From: Odontesthes bonariensis
Taxonomy: Eukaryota; Chordata; Actinopteri; Atheriniformes; Atherinopsidae
Length of the DNA stretch: 64,000 bases
NCBI RefSeq assembly: GCF_027942865.1
Contig: NC_134519.1
Span: 20,060,248 to 20,124,247, forward strand
Reading direction: 5' to 3'
The notes beneath the pieces were generated by a model. That model made no database searches, had not been told where the DNA came from, and saw only the letters and a program-made list of their open reading frames with translations. The translations under genes were made by a program, and so were the position numbers. Each line of letters starts with the position of its first letter. Position 1 is the first letter of the stretch. Shown one piece after another: positions 5,763-43,121 of the stretch.

Positions 5763-7029
5763 AGGCCATGGGGTTTTCCCCATGTTTTTAGTTTTATCAT
5801 GTTTTAGGTTGTCATGTCTTGGTTTTTGAGTTCATGTTTTGTTTTAGGTTTTGCCATTGTTTTTCCCTCACTCAGTTCATTAGTTTCACTCACATCACCT
5901 GTTTTCATTGTCCCCTAGCTGCACTCATTCACAATCACCCAGTTCACTATTTAGTTACCAGGCTCCCCTGTCATGTTGTGAAATCCTTTCCCTGATTTTC
6001 ACCCCTCATGCCACGACGCCACATATCAAAGATAAGTGTTTTTTAGTGTCATGCCAAGTCTTTTGTTTTCTTTAGTCATAGTCATAGTCATATTCATGTT
6101 CATGCCCCAGTTTGGTATTTGTCTTCCGGCTCAGCCTCACCCTTTGTTAACTTTGTTTTTTGAATAAACCAAGTTTTGCCTTACACCTCTGGAGTCCGCA
6201 TCCGTGTCCTTCCAACCCCACCCTGTCTGACAGGATTTCACCAGCCATGGACGCTGTCATGTCTGTGGGTTTTTGCCACGTTTTTAGTTTCTCTATAAGG
6301 TCTTAGTCTTACCATGTTTTAGTTTTTCATGTCTTAGTTTTGTTAAGTTTTAGGTTCAGGTCTTTTTAGTTTTTGCCATGCTATGCCACCTCAGTCTTTC
6401 TACTGCCCTGCCATCAGCTTCACTTCCCTCACCTGTGTTTTCCCCATCAGCTGCACCCACTCACCAATCACCCTCCTCAGTATTTAGTTTCCAGGTTTCC
6501 CCATGCACTTTGCCAGATCCTCACCGTCACTCATGGTCTCAAGTCAAGCCAAGTCAAACTAAGTTAAGTCTTTTGTTTTCTCACAGTCATGGTCATGTTT
6601 TTTTTTTTCTCTGTCTAGTTTTTGTCATCCGGCTCAGCCGTGTTTTGTGTTAAGCGTTTTATTTGCTTTTTGAAAGTCCGCATCCGTGGTCCAGAAGGAT
6701 CTGGCCAAACATGGACCCGGCAGACTTCGAGGCTTTCTGGGAGCTAGCCGGTAAACTCTGGAGCTGCTCGGCACGGGACAGCAGCTCTTGGGAGAAATTT
6801 TTGGTGACTAATGAACTCCTGGATTTTTATTTTTTTTTTGTGAGAGAAAGCAGGTTCTCGAGACGTGGGCTGTCAACACATCACACATCTGGGATGAGGC
6901 GAGGAGTGTACAGCGTGCTGCGGTGCAGGATATTTTCGGCATGGAGCTGGAAAAAGTAGCCACACTGTACACTTCCTCCCTCATCTCTCCAGCATCCCAG
7001 GACCCACAGCCCCAGGACCCCAGAGAGCC

Positions 7030-7950
7030 CGAGTTAGCCCCAGCCGCAGAGGCCGTAGCGCCCGAGCTGGCCCCAGCCCCAGAGGCCGTAGCGCCCGAGC
7101 TGGCCCCAGCCCCAGAGGCCGTAGCGCCCGAGCTGGCCCCAGCCCCAGAGGCCGTAGCGCCCGAGCTGGCCCCAGCCGCAGAGGCTGTAGCGCCCGAGCT
7201 GGCCCCAGCCGCAGAGGCTGTAGCGCCCGAGCTGGCCCCAGCCGCAGAGGCCGCCCCAGCCCCAGAGGCCGTAGCGCCCGAGCTGGCCCCAGCCGCAGAG
7301 GCCGCCCCAGCCCCAGAGGCCGTAGCGCCCGAGCTGGCCCCAGCCCCAGAGGCCGTAGCGCCCGAGCTGGCCCCAGCCCCAGAGGCCGTAGCGCCCGAGC
7401 TGGCCCCAGCCCCAGAGGCCGTAGCGCCCGAGCTGGCCCCAGCCGCAGAGGCCGCCCCAGCCCCAGAGGCCGTAGCGCCCGAGCTGGCCCCAGCCCCAGA
7501 GGCCGTAGCGCCCGAGCTGGCCCCAGCCCCAGAGGCCGTAGCGCCCGAGCTGGCCCCAGCCGCAGAGGCCGTAGCGCCCGAGCTGGCCCCAGCCCCAGAG
7601 GCCGTAGCGCCCGAGCTGGCCCCAGCCCCAGAGGCCGTAGCGCCCGAGCTGGCCCCAGCCCCAGAGGCCGTAGCGCCCGAGCTGGCCCCAGCCCCAGAGG
7701 CCGTAGCGCCCGAGCTGGCCCCAGCCCCAGAGGCCGTAGCGCCCGAGCTGGCCCCAGCCCCAGAGGCCGTAGCGCCCGAGCTGGCCCCAGCCGCAGAGGC
7801 CGCCCCAGCCGCAGAGGCCGTAGCGCCCGAGCTGGCCCCAGCCGCAGAGGCCGTAGCGCCCGAGCTGGCCCCAGCCGCAGAGGCCGTAGCGCCCGAGCTG
7901 GCCCCAGCCCCAGAGGCCGTAGCGCCCGAGCTGGCCCCAGCCACAGAGGC
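7030..7950 (+). repeat. 33-bp coding-type minisatellite, first array (about 25 units)
   Basis: Tandem 33-bp units translate on the plus strand to an 11-residue period, EAVAPELAPAP, with AAEAV variants. I count about 25 EAVAPELAP units plus four places where a 5-residue AEAAP-type block breaks the period. The units are nearly identical, as expected from unequal exchange or slippage. The array lies inside segment B of the LTR-like element. The unit length is a multiple of three and has no stop on either strand, so long open frames occur on both strands. Confidence 0.9.
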
Positions 7951-9246
7951 CGACTTAGCCACAGCCTTAGAGCCTGAGTCAGCCACAGAGGCCATGGGGC
8001 TTTTAGTTTTATGTTTTTATCATGTTTTAGGTTGTCATGTCTTGGTTTTTGAGTTCATGTTTTGTTTTAGGTTTTGCCATTGTTTTTCCCTCACTCAGTT
8101 CATTAGTTTCACTCACATCACCTGTTTTCATTGTCCCCTAGCTGCACTCATTCACAATCACCCAGTTCACTATTTAGTTACCAGGCTCCCCTGTCATGTT
8201 GTGAAATCCTTTCCCTGATTTTCACCCCTCATGCCACAACGCCACGTATCAAAGATAAGTGTTTTTTAGTGTCATGCCAAGTCTTTTGTTTTCTTTAGTC
8301 ATAGTCATAGTCATGTTCATGCCCCAGTTTGGTATTTGTCTTCCGGCTCAGCCTCACCCTTTGTTAACTTTGTTTTTTGAATAAACCAAGTTTTGCCTTA
8401 CACCTCTGGAGTCCGCATCCGTGTCCTTCCAACCCCACCCTGTCTGACAGGATGTCACCAGCCATGGACGCTGTCATGTCTGTGGGTTTTTGCCACGTTT
8501 TTAGTTTCTCTATAAGGTCTTAGTCTTACCATGTTTTAGTTTTTCATGTCTTAGTTTTGTTAAGTTTTAGGTTCAGGTCTTTTTAGTTTTTGCCATGCTA
8601 TGCCACCTCAGTCTTTCTACTGCCCTGCCATCAGCTTCACTACCCTCACCTGTGTTTTCCCCATCAGCCGCACCCACTCACCAATCACCCTCCTCAGTAT
8701 TTAGTTTCCAGGTTTCCCCATGCACTTTGCCAGATCCTCACTGTCACTCATGGTCTCAAGTCAAGCCAAGTCAAACTAAGTTAAGTCTTTTGTTTTCTCA
8801 CAGTCATGGTCATGTTTTTTTTTTTCTCTGTCTAGTTTTTGACATCCGGCTCAGCCGTGTTTTGTGTTAAGCGTTTTATTTGCTTTTTGAAAGTCCGCAT
8901 CCGTGGTCCAGAAGGATCTGGCCAAACATGGACCCGGCAGACTTCGAGGCTTTCTGGGAGCTAGCCGGTAAACTCTGGAGCTGCTCGGCACGGGACAGCA
9001 GCTCTTGGGAGAAATTTTTGGTGACTAATGAACTCCTGGATTTTTATTTTTTTTTTGTGAGAGAAAGCAGGTTCTCGAGACGTGGGCTGTCAACACATCA
9101 CACATCTGGGATGAGGCGAGGAGTGTACAGCGTGCTGCGGTGCAGGATATTTTCGGCATGGAGCTGGAAAAAGTAGCCACACTGTACACTTCCTCCCTCA
9201 TCTCTCCAGCATCCCAGGACCCACAGCCCCAGGACCCCAGAGAGCC

Positions 9247-9700
9247 CGAGCTGGCCGCAGAGGCCGTAGCGCCCGAGCTGGCCCCAGCCGCAGAGGCCGT
9301 AGCGCCCGAGCTGGCCCCAGCCGCAGAGGCCGTAGCGCCCGAGCTGGCCCCAGCCCCAGAGGCCGTAGCGCCCGAGCTGGCCCCAGCCCCAGAGGCCGTA
9401 GCGCCCGAGCTGGCCCCAGCCCCAGAGGCCGTAGCGCCCGAGCTGGCCCCAGCCCCAGAGGCCGTAGCGCCCGAGCTGGCCCCAGCCCCAGAGGCCGTAG
9501 CGCCCGAGCTGGCCCCAGCCCCAGAGGCCGTAGCGCCCGAGCTGGCCCCAGCCCCAGGACCCCAGAGAGCCCGAGCTGGCCGCAGAGGCCGTAGCGCCCG
9601 AGCTGGCCCCAGCCGCAGAGGCCGTTGCGCCCGAGCTGGCCCCAGCCCCAGAGGCCGTAGCGCCCGAGCTGGCCCCAGCCACAGAGGCCGACTTAGCCAC
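9247..9700 (+). repeat. 33-bp minisatellite, second array (about 13 units)
   Basis: Same repeat family as the array in the preceding unit, about half its length. A block from just ahead of the array (CCAGGACCCCAGAGAGCCCG, first near 9230) reappears inside the array near 9555, showing local rearrangement. The flanks are otherwise almost identical to the first unit, so the arrays changed length after the parent unit duplicated. Confidence 0.88.
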
Positions 9701-10180
9701 AGCCTTAGAGCCTGAGTCAGCCACAGAGGCCATGGGGCTTTTAGTTTTATGTTTTTATCATGTTTTAGGTTGCCATGTCTTGGTTTTTGAGTTCATGTTT
9801 TGTTTTAGGTTTTGCCATTGTTTTTCCCTCACTCAGTTCATTAGTTTCACTCACATCACCTGTTTTCATTGTCCCCTAACTGCACTCATTCACAATCACC
9901 CAGTTCACTATTTAGTTACCAGGCTCCCCTGTCATGTTGTGAAATCCTTTCCCTGATTTTCACCCCTCATGCCACGACGCTACGTATAAAAGATAAATGT
10001 TTTTCAATGTCATGCCAAGTCTTTTGTTTTCTATAGTCCTGGTCATGTTTTTGTCCTAGTTTGGTTTTTGTCTTCCGGCTCAGCCGCGCCCTTTGTTTAC
10101 TTTGTTTTTTGAATAAACCAAGTTTTGCCTTACACCTCTGGAGTCCGCATCCGTGTCCTGCCAACTCCACCCTTTCTTAC

Positions 10181-11640
10181 AAATCAGAACAGTTTGTATC
10201 ATATTAGTCATTTCAGTGACACAAAGTGGAACAACACAGATAACAGTGTTAATGAGTGACAGTGCAGGTTATACCGACCACCATCTGTGTACTACTAAAA
10301 TCAATAAGAGCTTGATTTAAATCCATTCTCAGGTTTTCTGACATTAAATGAGAAAAACTTCCTGAATAACACATGGGCATGGCTTTTATGGTTCTATCTT
10401 GTTCGTGTGTTGATGCTGAAAAACCACTCACAGAAAATTGAGATGATAAAATTTGGCATGTTTAGCAGTTATTGGTTGCATTCATTAGTGTTTGTCAAAA
10501 TAACAATACATAGAAAGCTGCTTTGTAGACAATAACAATGCCTTCCAACCAGGCTGATCTGGATGAATAAACTGCAGGGCCTGCAGTGAGTTCCCTGATA
10601 TGAAAGTATTTAGTGAAGAGTTCATTGCTCTCAAAACATCAAGGTGACTAAATGTTCCTCAAGCTGGAGGTATGGACCAGCCTTTACCTCGCCTCTTTCC
10701 AGAAGCAAGAGGGAGGACAAACAGGTCCAGGTGAAGGGTGGTTGGAGTCCTTCCTTTTACCTGCACCTGCTTAGATATCAATAATGTGGAGACGACTGAC
10801 CCTCTGGACGTTCTTCACCACTAAATTGCCTGCAACAAGGGAACTACAGAAGACTCAATTGGCCTTACACTTGCTGAGCTGGAGCTCCGTGTGAGGATGT
10901 TTGACATGTTCAGTCGCTTATTACATGAGATGACCGTGGCCGCCTGACATAAGGTGTACAATCTTTTTTTTGGTCTTTTTGGACCTACCGACTGAGAAAT
11001 TGTTCCTTTTGAACCAGGCCTCTGGTTTCTGCAGCCTGTTCTGGAAATTTTACTAGCTACTAAAGCTGTCAGGTGAACAGAATAGCGTAAAAAGTAAAGG
11101 ACATTCCTCGATTGTAGTGAGGCACAAAAATACAAAAAAGATCTATATCAAATAATGTAAAGCACACGTGCCACAGTTCGGACTGCAGAGACAGTATCTG
11201 CCGACCGTTGTGTGGGTGTTAGGTGAGGTACAGCTTACTGCGCTACAACCAATCACAGCAGAGTGGCCTTTCAACTGATCTAATCTAGCACCAACCACAC
11301 AGAAAGGGCTCACCTTTGATATTGACTTCCCAGGGTGGTCTTAACGCTTTGTCTAAGCCATCTACAATACTCCTGTGTTTAAACCTGAGCTGTTTAAGAG
11401 GACAGAAATGATCTTAAGGCATACTCTGCTTTTAGACTAAACTCATTTTACGGGTATCTTTTTTTTTCCTGTTTAAATACCCGGCAGCATTTTCTGTACC
11501 AGTGATCTTTGTGCACATAAAGAATAATTCTGAGTGTATTGCTGGTCCCTGTTGCCTCATCACAGATGGCTGTGCCTTTGTCAATCTGTGCTGACACTTC
11601 ACTCAGCAGTATGATGACGCCTTCTGATAACACAGCCGAC
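10181..11640. other. Intergenic stretch, nothing recognised
   Basis: Follows the 3' edge of the LTR-like array. Contains only short open frames without family resemblance and no clear RNA gene or transposon signature. Confidence 0.5.
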
Positions 11641-16256: not shown

Positions 16257-19200
16257 CTAGTTCCTCTCCTGTACAAATACAGTCTCCTGTGGACAAAGCC
16301 CTGCCTCTTGCAGTGTGATGTCATAGTCCAAGTGGGCGAGCTTCCTCCTGGGAAAGTTGGTGACGAGTTCAAAGCGTTCATTAGGGTAACCTTTGGACTG
16401 GACATGTCTTACCAGGGCCTTGAAGGAAGAGAGTTAAATTGTATAAGAGATATCATCTGCAAAACTTGTATCAACATGCACTGTTAACCAGGCATTACAC
16501 AAAAAAGAGAAACATCATGATGTTAGCTCACCAAAAGTTTTGCTTTCGAGGACAAAGAAATCTGCTCTCTCTGTCCGTCTGGGTAACGAAGCATCAACCT
16601 GGCTTTGGGTCCTTTGAAGAGAAGAAAACAAAACTAAACATTAAATATCTTTCTAAGATGATGCAGCACCAGGACATTTACCACAGCTGTAAACCAGAAC
16701 CCAAAGCTGAAATTATTTCTTGGGTTTTGTAAAAGTATAAATCGCATACAGCATGAAATCAAATGGGTGTCTCTACACAAAGACGCCCCAATGTGTCAAC
16801 GGATTAAAATCCACAGCACACGCCTGTTAACTGTGTTTGCAGAGACTAAAGTCCAGTTTCCATAGTCTGGGTTTTCATGCACTTTCCAGTCTATACGCGT
16901 CACACAAAGGTCCAATATACAACCTTAGCGAATCACATGGGCTTGCACTACAGCAAATTAATTGCAGTGCAAAAAGGACTAAACTAAAACTGACAGTAAA
17001 ACCCAACCTTTAGCAGACCACTCTGTCTTAGAGTGAAGAGGACTCTAAGAGATCTCATCCCCCTGTCTGAGAGAGGCAGCTTGGCTGAAAAAAGTGGATA
17101 TTCAGTGGAAGGCTGCACAGCAAGGACTCATGCGTGCTCGGCTGGACCGGCCGCAGCAACGGAACACTTGTGACGAACACAGAAGAAGAGAGACTGTGCT
17201 GAATAGTAACAGCATCTTTATAGTGCTATACCTTTATATAGCAGATAGTTGTTTTCAAGTTAAAATACCCATTTATACATCCGTCCCTCCCTCCAGTTCA
17301 CATAGATTTCCCGACCTTTCCTGGTTCATGTCAGTCAGTACCACGAATCTAAGATGGGGCTCCTCTGTTGCTCTGGTTTTTTTGTAGGTCTATCCAGCCC
17401 CTCTAGAGTAGATTTAGAAGATTCTAAACTCAATTTGCAATTTGTACCAATTTGCAAATCGGTCAGGTGAGGCCAGGCTATCAAATTGCCACTTGTACAA
17501 AGCAAACTCGTCTTCCTTCGTTATATTTTTCACCAGAACCTGAAGCTTGTTTACCAAGGGGCTGTCTGAATGCTCACCAACACAAACGCTAAACACTTGA
17601 GACACATTCGCCCTCCTGTAACGCTAATCAAAGTGTTTCGGAAACGACACGACTACAAGTGGTCTTGTTTTGGAAAGGAGCCTACAGGTTTGTACTTGTC
17701 GTACCATTGTCGTCAGGACAGTCTACGTCGCAGGTTGTGGTGGTGCTTATCTTGGAGGTTCCGGCACTTTTAGTTTGTGTGGTGCAGTGGTTCCCTCCAG
17801 AATCTGCAATGGGCTGAGGGTGACGGGGACCTGCAGCCGGCGGCTCCAGGTGGTTCTTTTTGCTCTCCTCTTTCTTGTGACTGTGATTGTTTTCTTTGTA
17901 CGGAGACTTTCTGTGGGAAGAAGTAGAACTATCTGGATGAAGACGCTGCTGGGCCGCAGTGGCTGAAGGGGCTGGTGTATGTTTACTGGTAGAACTTTTC
18001 TCTTCGTGGGGTGCTGGTGTTTCACTGTCTGACCCGTCAACAGAGATTGGTCCCTCGCTGTCAGAGAAGGGCTCGGCATCTGACTCGTCCTCTGATCGGG
18101 GGGAGTCGGGGGCTTCGGGGACATTCGAGGACTCATAGTGAGTTTCCTGTAGGGAGGCTCGGATCGCCGCCTCCAGCTGGCTGTCTTCACTGGCATCAAT
18201 AAGACTCTCCTAGAACAGAAAACAGAGTGAGCAGCTGTAGAAAGCACATCAAAGAGAGTCAACCTCATACATTACTTGTGGCTGTGTAACACTTAGGTTG
18301 ATCAAGTGCTTAAAATTCATAAATACAGATAGCGAAATCTGAAGCTCTTCAACATAGCAATGATAATCAAGTCCCTCTAAAACTGATGTGACAGAGGAAT
18401 TTCAAATTGGATTGTGAAAACAGAACAGAAGAGCAGCAACACCATGAGAACTAGAGGGGGCGCATGAGATAAGACACCCACAGAGCGAGCCCTTTTGGCA
18501 GGGGGTGCTGGGCAGGATGGCCCGTCGAGCTGTCCATGCTCTGCCAGAAAGCCAGTTGCTTGCTCCAGGAACGATGCCACATCCAGCTGGTTCCACTCCA
18601 CCATTTTTTGACCTAAATTGAAGATGGTTTTAGCAGAACAAATCAACAATCATCATTTATTTAAAGACATCAAAAGCAGGGAATCGAATGGCAAAGTATT
18701 TGAGACAGGCCAGTCGTGATCTACACTGCAGATGCACACAACTTAAGCTAATGTTTGGCGCACTTTTCCTTGTTAATTGCATCGACATCTGTGTAACATT
18801 TACCTTTCCAAAATGTGTTGCTGGAAAGTATTGATAATATGCCTTTATAATATGAGGATCTCCTCTTTTTCACATAGTTACTTAAGATTGTTATAAATCT
18901 TATCTATTTAAACTCCAGCCTTTGAACTGTGGATACTATAATGTTCTGGAAAGCGTGTTTTGTTAAGCTAAACTGGCACTAACTTGTCATAAGCACTCAC
19001 CTGTGCGTGGATCAAGGATGGAAATGTAGGGAAACTTGTTCAGCTTATAGAACTGAATGTACCTTTGTCCCTCTTCACTGTCGTGATATACCTGCAAAAA
19101 AAATAAATAAATGCAGTAACATACAGAAGTGAATGTAAACCAGACAGACCTAAACTGAAAGTCTGTGAGCTGATAAGGTTTCACTCGAGTGGAAGACGAA

Positions 19201-28450: not shown

Positions 28451-31327
28451 TGTCAAGTCCATTTATCTGCCATAAAAAAAGGCTTTTTGCATACTCACCT
28501 GTTAATAACATTGAACTGTTTTAATATCTTAATAATTCAACATCAACTTATCAGTTAGCTAAATAAAACAAAACAAAAAACTAGATTATGGCAGTTAAAG
28601 GTCCTCGGCGAAAAGAAAATAATTCATACCCAGAACTCCTGCAGCTCTGTCAGGTGGCTGATGTTCTCAATTTTCTTTACTCGATTAGCAGCGATGTCCA
28701 ACGTGGTGAGTTTTTTCTGGGAAAGGAAAACAAACTAAATGTTTGGATGTCCAGAACAAACTATTGTTAACACGTTTGCACAACTGAACCATTTGGTATC
28801 CAGTCTTTTTCAGATGTTTTCTATAACTCACATTGTTTTCCAGGCCCTCAATGACCTCAATGCCATTGTGGCTCAGATAGAGCTCTTTCAGGTTGACAAG
28901 GTTCTGTAGCCCCTCCATTTTAGTTATCCTGTTACTCTGCGAAGGGATGGGCATAAAAATTATTACTTACTGCCGTTTCAATATACACAAACTAGTCTTG
29001 TTATTAACCTCTACAAGTGTGCAATACCTGAATGCTTAAAACCGTCAGGCTGTGTAAACTGTCCAGATTCTGTAGCTTCGTTATTTTATTGGTACCAAGA
29101 AACAAACTTTGCAAAGATGGAAGTGCATCCAGGTTCTCAATGACCTGTGGACATTACAAAATGACAGACACGCCTTAAGTTGAAGTCATGGCTCCCCACC
29201 CCAAATGATGCAATTCAGTACACATATTTGTGATATTTCCATTAATTCTCACTGCAACAGAATCCTCTTTTGCCTCACCCTAATGCGATTAGAGCCCAGC
29301 TCCAGCATCTCCAGACCCGAGAGGTGGTCCAAGTTGGCAATGGTGCCAATTTTGTTGTGAAGCAGAAAAAGTTTCTTCAGCCGAGTAAACTGCTCCAAAT
29401 TTTCCACCTTCCTCAAAACGTTGAACGACACATCAAGCTGCCTATGGGTTCATTGTAAGAAAAAATAAATAAACCATAATAATAAATTAAAAGAATATTC
29501 GATATGAGAGCTCTTTCTCCAGACTTACTCCAATTCTGTGAGGCAGTGAAGATTCTCCAGTTTGCGGATCTGATTGTCGTAGAGATCTAGTTCCCGCAGT
29601 GAGCTCAAACTGTCGAGGTTTTCAATCTTTTTTATTAGGTTTTGTCGTAAGGAGAGCGTCTGGATAAGCAAAGAGATGAAAACAAAGCAGTTAAATGATG
29701 CGTTCTCTCGGATAGGACAACGTTGAAGTATGGTCGAAAGAAAATGCTGCTTTTTGCTTTCTGGTCATAAAAATAAAAAAAAATATTTAATAAAGAAAAG
29801 AAAACCTTGTTTGTGCACACTGCACTCCCACCTTTACTTCTTCAGTTCATGACAGTGGCACCTACATATTGAGGTTACTTACTTGAGCCTTCTGTAGCAC
29901 CTCCAGTCCTTCAATTTTTCCAATACGACAATGAACAAGATCAACATCCTGGAAAAACAAACAAAAAAAAAACATAGACAACTTGGATGAGGTGTCAACT
30001 ACAAGTGCACAGAGCGATTTGTTTCCGTCATGCCCTACCCTGCAACAATGTTGATTTACATACAGCAACAATTAATAAACAAAATCTTTATTCAAAGAAA
30101 AATATATATAATTTGCAAACTCCAAATACAAGAAAGGGATTCATTAGTTTAGGTGGGTGGTTATAGGAGGAGGTAATCAAAGCATCTTTTAACCTCTTCT
30201 TCTGGGTCCAAGGTTATAGTGTCCATATCAACGGGGGATTCTTCTTTACCTAAAGTGACAGCAAGAATAAATTACTTCAAGATAATACTTTCTTATATAA
30301 AATATTGACACAGAGGCTTCATTAAAGCAATATAGAACGATAATAGTATCAATGCAACCACACAGAAGGACCAATTACTGTTTGACATATTTTAAAGCAT
30401 CCATGTCAATCCGACATGAAAAACATTGTGCTTTTTGTGTCTCTGTGCAAGAGATGATGATGAATTACTTGTGGCAGAGGGCTGGTTGGGGTCCACATCG
30501 CCATTGATACTCTTCCTCCTGACTTCATCATCACCAGACTCCTCAGACTCACCCCTTCGGTCCACTATAATCAGCAAAGAGAACCTTTATTTCACCGTGC
30601 AGGGCTTTAGTCCGTTTATACATCAGTGACACTTTTAGATTATGCACATGTAATATGATGCAGAGCCCAGAACCAGCTCCACCTTGTTCACTGGGGAGAC
30701 AATCAGCATATCTGCCTGCTAGATATATCAAATAAATCATGATTGTGCACAAACAAGCACTTCTAACTATCAGTAAGTGGGAATGGGATCTAAACTACCT
30801 TTCCAGTCTTACCAGTTTGCAAGCTAAAGGTTAAGTTCTATCAATTTACACACACTGCTAACCATGCTACGTAGCTAGGTAGCTAACCGAACCAATATTA
30901 ACAGGTCAACAAGCAAAATTTTAAACATGTTAAATGCATACACAAACGGTACAAAACAGAAGAACAGTTTTCCACAGCGGTAGAGCAGCATCTGGGGTAA
31001 ATGAGTAGTACAAATTCAGAGTGACTAAACATTAAATAAATAACGTCTGCTAACGTCTTGTTGTTAGCCTGTTAGCTAAACCAAGGATGAGGGTCTGGTC
31101 AGTCAGAAGAAAAGTGAGTCACCAAGTGGGTCCATATTAAACTAGATGACCGTGTCTAAATGGGTACTAATTTCCCCGGTTGATACAGTCACACACCGTC
31201 GGCTTGTTTTGATATTTATACACTCACCTTCCATATCTTGAAGCTCTCCAACAGCCTGAGAAGCCATGTTTCCTTTAAACACTCCTGACAACCGCTCGTC
31301 CAATCGGGTGGAGGTTCGTGCTGCCAT
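27246..31327 (-). CDS. ppp1r7: Protein phosphatase 1 regulatory subunit 7 (SDS22)
   Basis: Leucine-rich-repeat partner of the PP1 catalytic subunit, acting in nucleus and cytosol in PP1 maturation and mitotic exit. Ten coding exons in order: 31327-31228, 30564-30469, 30249-30194, 29948-29883, 29659-29529, 29441-29279, 29144-29028, 28936-28832, 28716-28630 and 27422-27246; phases close and give 365 residues (human 360). The N-terminus is acidic (VDRRGESEESGDDE). Next come about eleven SDS22-type 22-residue LRRs (for example LRELDLYDNQIRKLENL and LVNLKELYLSHNGIEVIEGL). The C-terminal LRR cap ends LPSVRQIDATFIRF, nearly identical to human. The exon 3 donor (GAG then GTTAAA) is weak but is required by the phase. 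An in-frame Met (residue 21, GNMASQAV) could be an alternative start. Confidence 0.97.
28418..28446. repeat. Poly-T tract, 29 nt, in ppp1r7 intron 9
   Basis: Uninterrupted T run, poly-A on the transcribed strand, between the last two coding exons. It may be a retroposed poly-A tail, but no element body could be recognised beside it. Confidence 0.8.
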
Positions 31328-35808: not shown

Positions 35809-35964
35809 GCAAAAGGGGGAGTGCTGCCAAGTACTTTCTGTTTAAAGTTTGAACAGATGTGACGACCATCCGAGCGCTGTTTAAATGGCTTGACGCATTC
35901 GTGCTTCGACATTTTACGGTTGAGCTCTCTCTGAAACCGAAGCTGCCTAAAAGCAAGCAGAAAG

Positions 35965-38321
35965 ATGCATTTTCGTAGTATTGTCGTGTTACTGTGGTGT
36001 CACTTATCGCAGGCTGTTCCTTCTCCGGTCGGTAAGACCTGTCTCTTCCTTTGTTGTTTTTGTTCTGTTGCATTGCATTATTTTGAAGCAAATGACTGCA
36101 CGAGTAAGAATGTCTTATAAAGCTGTAAAACGGACGAAGAAAACGGTTTTTTGCACCTTAGCCATTAACGTTGCCCAGTAACCGTACACAAACTGGCCTG
36201 CTGCTAATAAATTCAAGCCAATCGTTTGGTTGAGATTGGTTTTTAATCCTTAGTCTTTTACACCTTAACTTTGAACCGGGCAGTTTATTGAAGGAGGACC
36301 AACAAAATACAGCGCGTTAAAACCTGCCTGTTCGGTTTTTGTTGACACGGACAGGGTTGTTTAAACTCTGATTTTATGTTTTTATGATGCGCGTTTAATA
36401 TATTTTTAAGTAATTGATTTAAAGCTGCGCGGCTATTATTTGTAACTGAGTCCTACAAATGAGCTAGGGCCATGTAAAAGTGCCTACAAAACAATGTTTC
36501 CCTTTAAACATCAGGGTGAGGCCATCTGACAGGACAATGTCAACAAAAACTGTCGAGAGAGGGTTTTTTCCCTTGGCTTGTGGATTTCATCAAGTTGTAC
36601 TGCTGCAAAACGGCTTGCATTTAAAAACTTTGTTTTATCACAGTGTGTATATAAATGTGTGTGTGTGTATTGATAAATGCATTTTTTGAATTTCTCCACT
36701 ATAAATGTGCGACTTGCAGCTTTATAATCGTTGTGAAAATGAACTTCTGCACCGTGCGCCAGCTTTTGCTTCTAGTTTTGTTTTTAACCACAAATGAAAG
36801 TTGAAGACAGGGCGGCTATTGGATTAGCAATACAACTTCCTTCTTTTCTGGCCCTTTACAGATGCCATCGTAGTTCAGATCCAGCAGTGGGGAAACGTTG
36901 GAGCTCAGCACGTCACACAGCAGGTTCTTCTTAATGGCGTCTCTTTTACCAGCTCGGACCAGGAAATCAACAGCATTATCCAGACCATTTTAGTTGGTGC
37001 ACTTCTGCCAGCTAGTATTGGCATTAACCAGATTCCAGCTCTGAGTAAGACAATTAGATGGTAGTCTACTATTAATGACCGCGCCACCACAACTTGGATC
37101 CAATCTCATGGGTATTCATTTATTTTTGTCAATTCCATAGATGACCACACAATACTTCGTTCTCGAGAATGCATACTAGAAGGGCCTCAGTTGCACTGGA
37201 CTGACCGCGTGTTGTACGATGGTAAGGTGTATCTGACTCTGAACCATAATGACACCTGGACTGCTCATGAGCCTCAAGCAGTGGCCCTCAAAGTGCTTTG
37301 GGACCAGGACGTGCAGCGCACAAGGACTGAGAAGACCCGCCTGCTGGAAGGATGTGTGCAGCTGATGAGAGAACTCCGGCTCTCTGAGGAACAGTCAGGT
37401 GCGGTGTTTCTCTTCTGGGTATTTTTTAAGAAAGTAGCTTACACTATATTAAACAAGTTTGTCCAACGTGACTGTGGTGGTGCAAGGATGCAGTACTATA
37501 AATGGTTTTTGTTCTTACTCTGTAGCTCCAGGAATTCCTTTGCCTCGTTTCCTGGTTCCAATCTTGGCAGTTGTGGCATTTATTGGACTAATTGCTGTCA
37601 GTATTCTTGTCTCCAAAAGCTGGGGTAAGAAAATAACAGTTTTTCCCATTTTTGGATAATGCATTGTATTGTACAACCTGTTATCACACCTCAAATGTAG
37701 CCTTTATGAGACAGAAGTATAGCACATTATTGTCTGCTAACTTTTGACCCCTGCTTTAAAGTTGGACTCTGTCATGCTCACAAAACGTAGCATAACTTGT
37801 CACATGATTATTTGTACTGTATCTCCTACTTATAGTCGATCATGTGTTGTCTTTTTCCACACTCTTCTTAGGTTCAACACTCCCTGGAGGTAAGCAACAA
37901 CAATCCTTGCGTTTCACTTTAGTTTCTGAACACTTCTCAGCTGACTTTCTTGGAAGATTGATAAAAAGTTAAATATTGAATATACTCCTCATACCCTTTT
38001 GGATGATGAGGACATTTTATAGTGCTTGAAGGCATGTCATGTGGTTTTTGTCAGTCCTGACGCACCCAATTTTATGTATAATCTGACCTCACTTATCAGT
38101 GCAGTTGCCAGATCAACAATTTACACATGAGACACTGTCTCGATTCCTCACAAATTGTGTGATCTATTTGTGGCTTGATTGTGCATCTGTACGCTAAGCT
38201 TACTCTATTTGGTTTTTATTTCCCTTTCCTTTCAGGTGTCATCGGCTCAGTTATACATTACCCCAAAGACATGAACAACATGGCTCCAGATGTAAAAGGC
38301 AGTGGTTACTGTAGCTTGTAA
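35965..38321 (+). CDS. MHC class I-like protein, teleost H lineage (no alpha-3 domain)
   Basis: Six coding exons: 35965-36031, 36862-37044, 37141-37398, 37526-37624, 37872-37889 (18 nt) and 38236-38321; all junctions are phase 1, giving 236 residues. Order: signal peptide (MHFRSIVVLLWCHLSQA); a short alpha-1-like part, residues 23-83 (usual domain near 88); an intact alpha-2 domain, 84-169, with YDGKVYLTLN, TWTA and LLEGCVQLMREL motifs, the Cys94/Cys155 pair and an N-glycosylation sequon at Asn120; a membrane segment at about 178-198; and a 38-residue tail with Tyr217 (IHYPKDM) and Tyr233 (terminal YCSL). No exon encodes an Ig-like alpha-3, so beta-2-microglobulin binding and classical peptide presentation are unlikely. 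This matches the H lineage described in 2019: decayed ectodomain and conserved tyrosine tail, suggesting signalling. EPCR or ULBP homology was considered, but the alpha-2 motifs and tail favour H. Confidence 0.85.
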
Positions 38322-38548: not shown

Positions 38549-38554
38549 AATAAA
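38549..38554 (+). terminator. Poly(A) signal of the MHC class I-like gene
   Basis: AATAAA about 230 bp after the stop codon on the plus strand, followed by a T-rich stretch. A reasonable 3' UTR end, though unconfirmed. Confidence 0.55.
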
Positions 38555-38559
38555 TATTT

Positions 38560-40330
38560 TTTTCACCCATGCACAAGAATATAAATGCTGTATACCCACT
38601 GCCTGAAGAAATGTAGAAGTTTCTTAAAGTTAATACCTCATGTTTCCATGATGTTATATCTGTTTTTAAGATCATTTGTGAAAATGTCTCTAGTTTGAAC
38701 AGTATTTGATGTCTGTGTTTTTTTGTTTTTTTTTGTCTTTACTGAAACTGTGCCAACACTGGATGAATATTTTCTGTTAGCACTGTCCCTCTTCCAGAAT
38801 ATGTTTTTATGAAGATATAACCTGTTCCATTCTGTCTTACTTTTCTATGGAGCACGTTTCTTCGGGCGCATTAAAAATAAGTCATTTCTGGACTGAGAAT
38901 CATTTTTTTTCAGTGATGTTTCTCTCTTGTTGCTGAGTGGACAAAAGGGGAGGATTTGGAGTGATTTTTGGAAAAAACGTGCATTGAGAGAAAAATGTCC
39001 GAACATGGAAAATTAGGTTAGGGTGAACTGTAATATATTAAATTTGTGTTGAACAAATTTTGATTTCTCTGTAAATGTTGGTGTTTTATGGATAAAACTA
39101 AATTGTGTTGCACAATGCTAGTAATCCTTTTTGTTTTGTTTTTCTGGACACATTTCATCCATTTTTATAAAAGGTCGTGTGTCCAGGTTTTTGACTAGAA
39201 CCATCAATGTTTAGCTCTATGTAGACTGATTCTGAGGTCTTGAGCCTGACTGTTATTTAAGTACAGTCAATAGCCAAGAAGCCAACTGCCTCCTTTAAAA
39301 TTTGTCATTCAGTACCAAAATGGTCATTTATGTGTAGAAATCATTCCAACTTCAGCTATAAAAGGTAATAATTGACATAACTCTTCCTGTTTTTAGTGCT
39401 TTTGAGGTAAATGTGTTATTTGTGACACACATATGTGTTAATTATTTCCTTTTCCAAGAGGAGAAGAGAGGCTGACGGTGCCATGGTTGCTCAAGTTTCT
39501 GTTGACCATTGAGTACCGTAAGTGTTATTTGAGAAAGTTGACTAAAAAAAAAAATGGCCTCAGTGTTGCAGTAACTTGCAATCTACATTTTCAGATCTAT
39601 ATACATTTGACCTGTTCTGTTAGCCCACTGCCTTATAAAAAAAACTTATTAAGGATCAAATATTGAAGTTAACTTACTTAACAAATAAGTTGACAAAGAT
39701 GGTTTTTGAGCAGAACCCACCTAAAAGTGATTACATATTCCCTTGTTTCCAAAACTTAATGCCAAGTTTTACCTTTAAATTTCAATTGATCCTAACAACT
39801 ATAATGTTGTCTAACGTCATGATCATTATTATTATCATTTCATTTGATTTATCTGTTGTTTCTTAGGAAGCATACATAAGGGTTTCTAAAGCAACTTGCT
39901 TATCCATTTGTTCATACCGCTATCATTTATTTGGTTATGAAGCACACCCATCTGATCATTTAATGTTATCAATGTAATTATTGCACTCAAACTAAGCAGA
40001 ATGAGCAAATAAATGTTTTATTTAGTTTGATGGTAAAGTATTTCATCATAACTATTTTCGGTGTATGTCATGACTTTTACAAATAATACATTTATGAAAA
40101 ATAATTCCATGAGGATGGGTCATTGATTTATGATGCCTAATATGGTTCATGATTAAACATTTTTTTACTCTATTTAATTAGTGGGGAAATTCGCCCATTT
40201 TATTTAATCTTATTCTATTTTATTTTACAAATCCAAGCCGTAATATAATATCTGAGCAGTAGGTGGCGATAAATATTAAATGACGAGGTTCGCGTCCCGG
40301 CGTTAATTTCAGGAAATGACGTCCCTGATA
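38560..40330. other. Intergenic stretch between the MHC-like gene and cdc20
   Basis: AT-rich, with short open frames only. No family resemblance, RNA gene or transposon recognised. Confidence 0.5.
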
Positions 40331-40939: not shown

Positions 40940-43121
40940 ATGGCGCACTTTGGGTTTGAAAACGACATCCACAGTATTTTGAAGCTGGACATGCCCATCA
41001 CAAACGCTCCCATGGCGAGGTGGCAGAGGAAGGCCAGCTCATCCAACATATCCGCCGTGAACGGTTTGTCACCCGGAAAGTCTGCTAATGTGTCGCTGAA
41101 TTCATCAAAAACTCCGAGCAAAACGCCAGGTAACGTTGGTTTATTTGTGTTTGTGACACTTCAAGACACGCCGAAAAGAGCTCTGAGGTCTCTTATTCAA
41201 CTTGCAATAACGTCCCGTTGGTCCTTTTATTGAAGGTAAAAACAAAAAAACGCCCTCGAAGATGGGGGGCGATCGCTTCATTCCCATTAGAAACGGCAAA
41301 CAAATGGACGTGGCAAATTTCCTGCTTACAAAGGAGACTGAGCCGGTTGACCCAAACGCATCAGCTTCATTGGTAAGTTATGTGGTACATTTCCTCACCA
41401 AACCTGTATATAAATCAGGTATTTTATTGACCATACCAACTGTGTTTACAGGCAAGCCAGAAAGCTTGGTCTGTGTCGTTGAATGGATACAACATTGACG
41501 ATGCAAAGATCCTCCACCTTGGAGGGAAACCTCTTAATGCACCAGAAGGTAGTGTGCAATCATCAACATGATTTGCTGTACACATTTTTTTTTTATTATT
41601 ATTTTTTTCTAATATGTCCTATAATTTAAGTCTTGGTCTGCCTTTTCAGGTTATCAAAACAACTTGAAAGTCCTCTACAGTCAGGGTACAACCCCTGCTT
41701 CTGCGTTAAAGACCAGATATATATCTTCAACGGCCGACAAAATCTTGGACGCCCCCGATCTTAGAAATGATTTTTGTAAGTTGAGCATTTCATTTTGACA
41801 CCACTCACGTCAGAACAACCTAAGAACACTAAGACTGAACATCGGTAATCTATTAATTTCTCAGAAGAAAATGGATTCATTTTTGTCTCCCAACACACAT
41901 TTGTTCACGTTTCTCTGCAGATTTAAATCTGCTTGACTGGAGCAGTCAAAACATTCTTGCTGTGGGGCTTCATAAAAGTGTGTACTTGTGGGATGCTACT
42001 CAAGGAAACATCTATCTTCTGATGACGCTGGAACGCGAAGAAGACTACATCTGCTCAGTATCTTGGACCAAAGAGGGGAGCTATCTAGCTATTGGCACCA
42101 GTGACTGCAAAGTTCAAGTAAGTGTGGCGCTAGAAATGCCACATTTGGACATGAGGATACAGGACAGGATTTATTTTTGTATGCGTTTCAAATTATGACT
42201 CTTTGTTTTCCTTAGCTGTGGGACGTTATATCTCGGAAGCGCTTGCGCATCATGTCTAGCCACACAGCTAGAGTTGGAAGTCTGAGCTGGAATGTGCATA
42301 TTCTTTCCAGGTACAGTTGATCTGACACAAAAGGGTGAAACCAATGGTCACAAATGCCTCTTCTTCAAAACTTCTCATATTTACTCAACTTTTTTTTTTT
42401 TTTTTTTTCTCTCCATCCCCCAGTGGGTCCAGATCTGGACACATCCACCATCACGACGTCAGGGTGGAAAACCATCACATTTCCACACTTGCTGCTCACT
42501 CACAAGAGGTGTGTGGCCTTAAGTGGTCCCCTGATGGGCGATACCTGGCCAGCGGAGGCAATGACAACTTGGTGTGTTTATGGCCCCGTGTGCAGGAGGG
42601 TGGCTCCAGCGATCAGTTGGTCCACTGCTTGAGTGAACATCAGGGAGCTGTCAAGGTGAGATTTATTTATTATTTAACTATTTTCTTGTTTATATATTTA
42701 TATGAACGAATTGGATTATTTTATGAATTATGATTATTATTAATTAATTGAATTCCAATTGGCTTGAATTGGACTTACTAAGTGCCTTGAGATGACATTT
42801 GTTGTATTTGGCGCTATATAAATAAAAATGAATTGAATTGAATTATAGAATTTCTTTATAATGCTGTCATAATAAAGTGCAGATGCTTTTTGTGCCACGA
42901 CTGAATATGTCAAAACATGCGTGTGTGTGTGTGGTGTTGTAGGCTTTGGCCTGGTGTCCTTGGCAGTCAAATATACTTGCGTCTGGAGGTGGGACCAGTG
43001 ACCGTCACATCCGCATCTGGAATGTAAACAGCGGCTCATGCATCAGCTCACTTGACACTCAGTCCCAGGTAACTGTAGCTCCAAATCCCTTAGTTTTGTT
43101 ACCCTGAAATGACCATGGATG

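Follow-up and report, generated by a model that had tools for sequence, protein, structure and literature searches.

A probable H-lineage MHC class I gene without an alpha-3 exon next to PPP1R7 in fish genomic DNA

The window, by which we mean the whole 64-kb stretch of DNA analyzed here, contains, between positions 17685 and 61353, UBXN7 (minus strand), PPP1R7 (minus), a divergent MHC class I gene (plus; hereinafter the H gene, after the lineage to which we assign it), CDC20 (plus), an ELO-family gene (minus) and BOK (plus), in that order. The genes around the H gene were recognized by their protein matches. UBXN7 was identified through a PDB match titled 'KIAA0794' (E=4.4e-15), which we take to be the same protein; PPP1R7, with exons at 28.7-29.9 kb and matching pieces at 28841-29931, yielded E=1.3e-30, and the ELO-family gene and BOK yielded E=1.9e-13 and E=6.8e-26, respectively. 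CDC20, which starts near 40940, matches CDC20 in the PDB with E=2.1e-36, artificial and other WD-repeat chains being ranked above it through repeat counting; one of its exons matches the Pfam family WD40_CDC20-Fz with E=3.5e-25, under the whole-domain cut-off of that model. On its upstream side, the H gene has PPP1R7 as its closest recognized neighbor, the interval of 29.9-35.9 kb from the last PPP1R7 exon found to the H gene having been read as a list of open reading frames only; on the other side, CDC20 is the closest gene recognized. In human, CDC20 and ELOVL1 reside together on one chromosome and PPP1R7 and BOK on another, so that the gene order in the window joins two blocks.

The H gene comprises six plus-strand exons (35965-38321) that join in frame into 711 nt, predicted to encode 236 amino acids and a stop codon. 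The in-frame splicing, the GT...AG borders of all five introns (830, 96, 127, 247 and 346 nt) and the phase 1 start of every exon after the first bear out the exon structure proposed in the initial annotation; the 711 nt contain neither internal stops nor frameshifts. Exon 1 (35965-36031), delineated by the in-frame splice and a GT donor, carries the start codon and a probable signal peptide (MHFRSIVVLLWCHLSQAVPSPV), the hydrophobic stretch of which was called by eye. The product thus predicted consists of this short leader, a first domain of 61 residues, an alpha-2 domain of 86 residues, a membrane helix and a 38-residue tail. A candidate polyadenylation signal, found as a match to the pattern A(A/T)TAAA, is located on the plus strand at 38549-38554, and further candidates start at 38870 and 39037. 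The window harbors no second H copy detectable by tblastn with the model, which returned eight rows, four of them the gene's own exons and four with E of at least 2.9. Upstream of the start codon, a sequence resembling an interferon-stimulated response element (ISRE), GAAACCGAAG at 35933, with one mismatch, was considered and dismissed as uninformative because the two strands of the window contain 165 one-mismatch and 11 exact ISRE-like sites.

The alpha-2 and membrane exons are separated by intron 3 (37399-37525, plus strand), the place where an exon encoding the alpha-3 immunoglobulin (Ig) domain would be expected. All introns were inspected for a hidden Ig exon by the length of their open stretches, the longest being 86, 31, 41, 43 and 39 codons in introns 1 to 5, respectively. 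A usual Ig exon spans about 270 nt, so that intron 3, which has only 127 nt and in which none of the six frames stays open for more than 41 codons, has no room for alpha-3, in agreement with the initial annotation, which had noted no such exon at this place. Accordingly, the gene model lacks alpha-3, as do the teleost H molecules.

Exon 3 (37141-37398) encodes the alpha-2 domain. Searched alone against Pfam, it matches MHC_I with E=9.4e-7 (29.0 bits, above the 28.3-bit cut-off; the query was translated through the split first codon, its residue 1 being Asp, not Asn); the whole protein gives E=6.6e-6 and 26.3 bits, slightly under the cut-off. The best match among PDB sequences is an MHC chain (3fol_A, E=1.9e-5). 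A match of the whole protein to the Pfam family BrkB (E=0.5) was set aside as due to chance. The landmarks on which the initial annotation relied are all in place, namely Cys94, Cys155 and the motifs YDGKVYL (starting at residue 109), TWTA (122) and LLEGCV (151), and a possible N-glycosylation site is present at Asn120. Glu93, immediately before Cys94, aligns with position 100, adjoining Cys101, and is the acidic residue expected of H; this numbering is borrowed from a mouse-type PDB chain and is taken to equal that of HLA-A2 at this place. The predicted structural model of alpha-2 comprises four strands and helices, and a fold search with this model placed MHC chains on top with weak scores, the best of them mostly class II chains. 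The residues of alpha-2 that hold the peptide ends in classical class I molecules are Thr143, Lys146, Trp147, Tyr159 and Tyr171. In the alignment, Trp147 is retained, and Thr143, Lys146 and Tyr159 are replaced with Leu, Leu and Arg, respectively; the place of Tyr171, found by counting on from Cys164 outside the alignment, is occupied by Leu, so that four of the five residues are replaced. Together with the lack of room for alpha-3, these replacements rule out a classical MHC class I molecule.

The first domain is encoded by exon 2 (36862-37044), which was assigned by its position and phase. The initial annotation called it a short alpha-1-like part. Its shortness and position stand; the likeness to alpha-1 was not found, given that exon 2 has no MHC match among Pfam families or PDB sequences, and that a fold search with its low-confidence model returned no MHC title among the 50 matches shown. 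Exon 2 is alpha-1 by order, position and phase only. The consensus length of alpha-1 and of alpha-2 is about 90 residues each; thus, the lengths of 61 and 86 residues found here represent the combination of a shortened alpha-1 with a near-normal alpha-2 that characterizes teleost H. The H alpha-1 is described as uncertain to align in the study by Grimholt et al. 2019 (PMC6769792); the absence of detectable MHC homology in exon 2 fits this description but is not positive evidence.

Exon 4 (37526-37624) encodes a connecting peptide and the membrane helix, the hydropathy of which peaks at 2.94 over 19 residues starting from residue 180. The helix contains Pro181 and Ser195, 14 residues apart, which is the spacing of the published Pro290 and Ser304, a correspondence drawn from the spacing within the helix. 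The tail is predicted to be encoded by an 18-nt exon 5 (37872-37889), delineated by its AG/GT borders and phase 1, and by exon 6 (38236-38321), which ends with the stop codon. The tail sequence GVIGSVIHYP (residues 209-218), with the first Gly codon split across the junction of exons 5 and 6, fits exactly the teleost H motif GV(I/L)GS(I/L/V)(I/V)HYP (PMC6769792), and its nine-residue core has a single match among the 127,996 six-frame positions of the window. Signals of the GYxxPhi type direct the sorting of lysosomal membrane proteins. The C-terminus of the H protein (SGYCSL, 38301-38321) ends in GYCSL, which resembles such an endosome/lysosome sorting signal; the portion of the text of PMC6769792 used here makes no mention of this tail end.

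The H lineage (HAA) of teleost MHC class I was described in 2019 and, according to PMC6769792, is distinguished by the absence of alpha-3, a shortened alpha-1, a near-normal alpha-2, an acidic residue at position 100 of the HLA-A2 numbering and, in the membrane helix, Ser304 and, in part of the sequences, Pro290; in characins, catfish and knifefish, alpha-1 or alpha-2 is shorter or missing, so that the fish studied here probably belongs to none of these groups. The gene described here shares with HAA the domain losses and lengths, the acidic Glu93, the Pro/Ser spacing in the membrane helix, the exact tail motif and the proximity of PPP1R7, and hence almost certainly belongs to the H lineage. 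The initial annotation had reached the same assignment from the domain losses alone, and the addition of the tail and membrane features makes it much firmer. With high confidence, we regard the gene as an HAA-type MHC class I gene of bony fish that encodes a type I membrane protein devoid of alpha-3. Some observations weigh against this reading, namely the whole-protein MHC_I score under the Pfam cut-off, a first domain in which no homology was detected, the prevalence of class II chains, with weak scores, among the best fold matches of the alpha-2 model, and the failure of the HMG-box patterns described below to reveal TOX.

The H genes of pike and salmonids are flanked by TOX and PPP1R7 (PMC7853315). 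The PPP1R7 neighbor agrees with this arrangement; on the TOX side the closest gene recognized here is CDC20, and a search of the 64-kb window with two HMG-box patterns did not find TOX, which may lie outside the window. Spotted gar HAA, the H molecule of the Holostei, shares with the present protein a tyrosine in the tail and a serine in the membrane helix; it differs in keeping alpha-3 and domains of consensus length and in having the tail motif just partially (PMC6769792).

Two explanations other than a working H gene have to be weighed. Absence of room for alpha-3 would also be compatible with another kind of MHC class I-like molecule, either EPCR (PROCR/CD1-like) or a stress ligand of the ULBP/RAET type, the alpha domains of which are read by receptors of other cells; the ULBP/RAET proteins, likewise MHC class I-like and devoid of alpha-3, are named in PMC7853315 as mammalian molecules similar in build to H. 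The ULBP/RAET proteins are nevertheless set apart from the present one by its cut-short first domain, its membrane helix and its 38-residue tail with the H motif. Given, moreover, that the H tail signature is exact, that the residue at position 100, the membrane Pro and Ser and the PPP1R7 neighbor fit H, and that a first domain of 61 residues makes a full two-helix platform doubtful, we consider an EPCR- or ULBP-type identity very unlikely. Alternatively, the locus could be a decaying H gene, still open in frame, the protein of which is no longer of importance in this fish: the ectodomain decays as a rule in the H molecules of teleosts, and for some salmonids HBA is probably a pseudogene (PMC6769792). 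An intact frame over 711 nt, free of internal stops and frameshifts, five canonical introns and the preserved tail motif argue against decay, which appears very unlikely.

An assignment to the H lineage has implications for function. Pairing with beta-2-microglobulin and peptide display of the classical kind, already doubted in the initial annotation, which reasonably inferred their absence, seem unlikely from the sequence because alpha-3 is missing, the first domain is cut down and most of the peptide-end residues of alpha-2 are replaced. Most likely, the membrane helix, with Ser195 and Pro181, would bind a partner chain; the working part would be the region of the tail that surrounds Tyr217, serving as a phosphorylation or docking site. 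Following the authors of PMC6769792, who regard the tail as the conserved working part of H and report a ds/dn of 14.60 for the tail-motif codons across teleost H, we lean towards a tail-centered function that would combine a membrane-helix partner with a tyrosine-based tail signal; membrane helix and tail are probably what matters most in the protein. Functional tests of an H molecule were not encountered in the H literature, to the extent that it is cited here. A different, rather unlikely arrangement is half of an MHC platform, in which alpha-2 would fold alone and pair, in the class II fashion, with a second alpha-2 or another membrane chain, the C-terminal GYCSL would sort the protein to endosomal membranes and Tyr217 would signal. 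The class II chains among the nearest folds of the alpha-2 model might suggest this arrangement, though at weak scores.

The H gene provides a further clean case of a class I molecule in which the exterior decays while the inner tail is kept, and bears on the stability of a partial MHC platform and on what the H molecules signal. The sequence adds a further member to a known lineage, and no tested feature of the protein falls outside that lineage; because the lineage and the ideas on its function are already in print (PMC6769792), one more H sequence mainly serves alignments and selection tests. Accessions with the XP_ prefix are presumably RefSeq predictions. The expectation that automated annotation is likely to miss such a gene holds only in part, given that six XP_ accessions are presented as H sequences in a legend of PMC6769792.

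Far upstream of the H gene, the window contains a tandem duplication (6200-10200) with a unit of approximately 2.2 kb, the first 1254 bases of which are 95.6% identical to the second copy. Each copy carries an array of a 33-bp minisatellite (7027-7952 and 9254-9690); these arrays keep long frames open on both strands, which is probably an effect of the repeats and not a gene.
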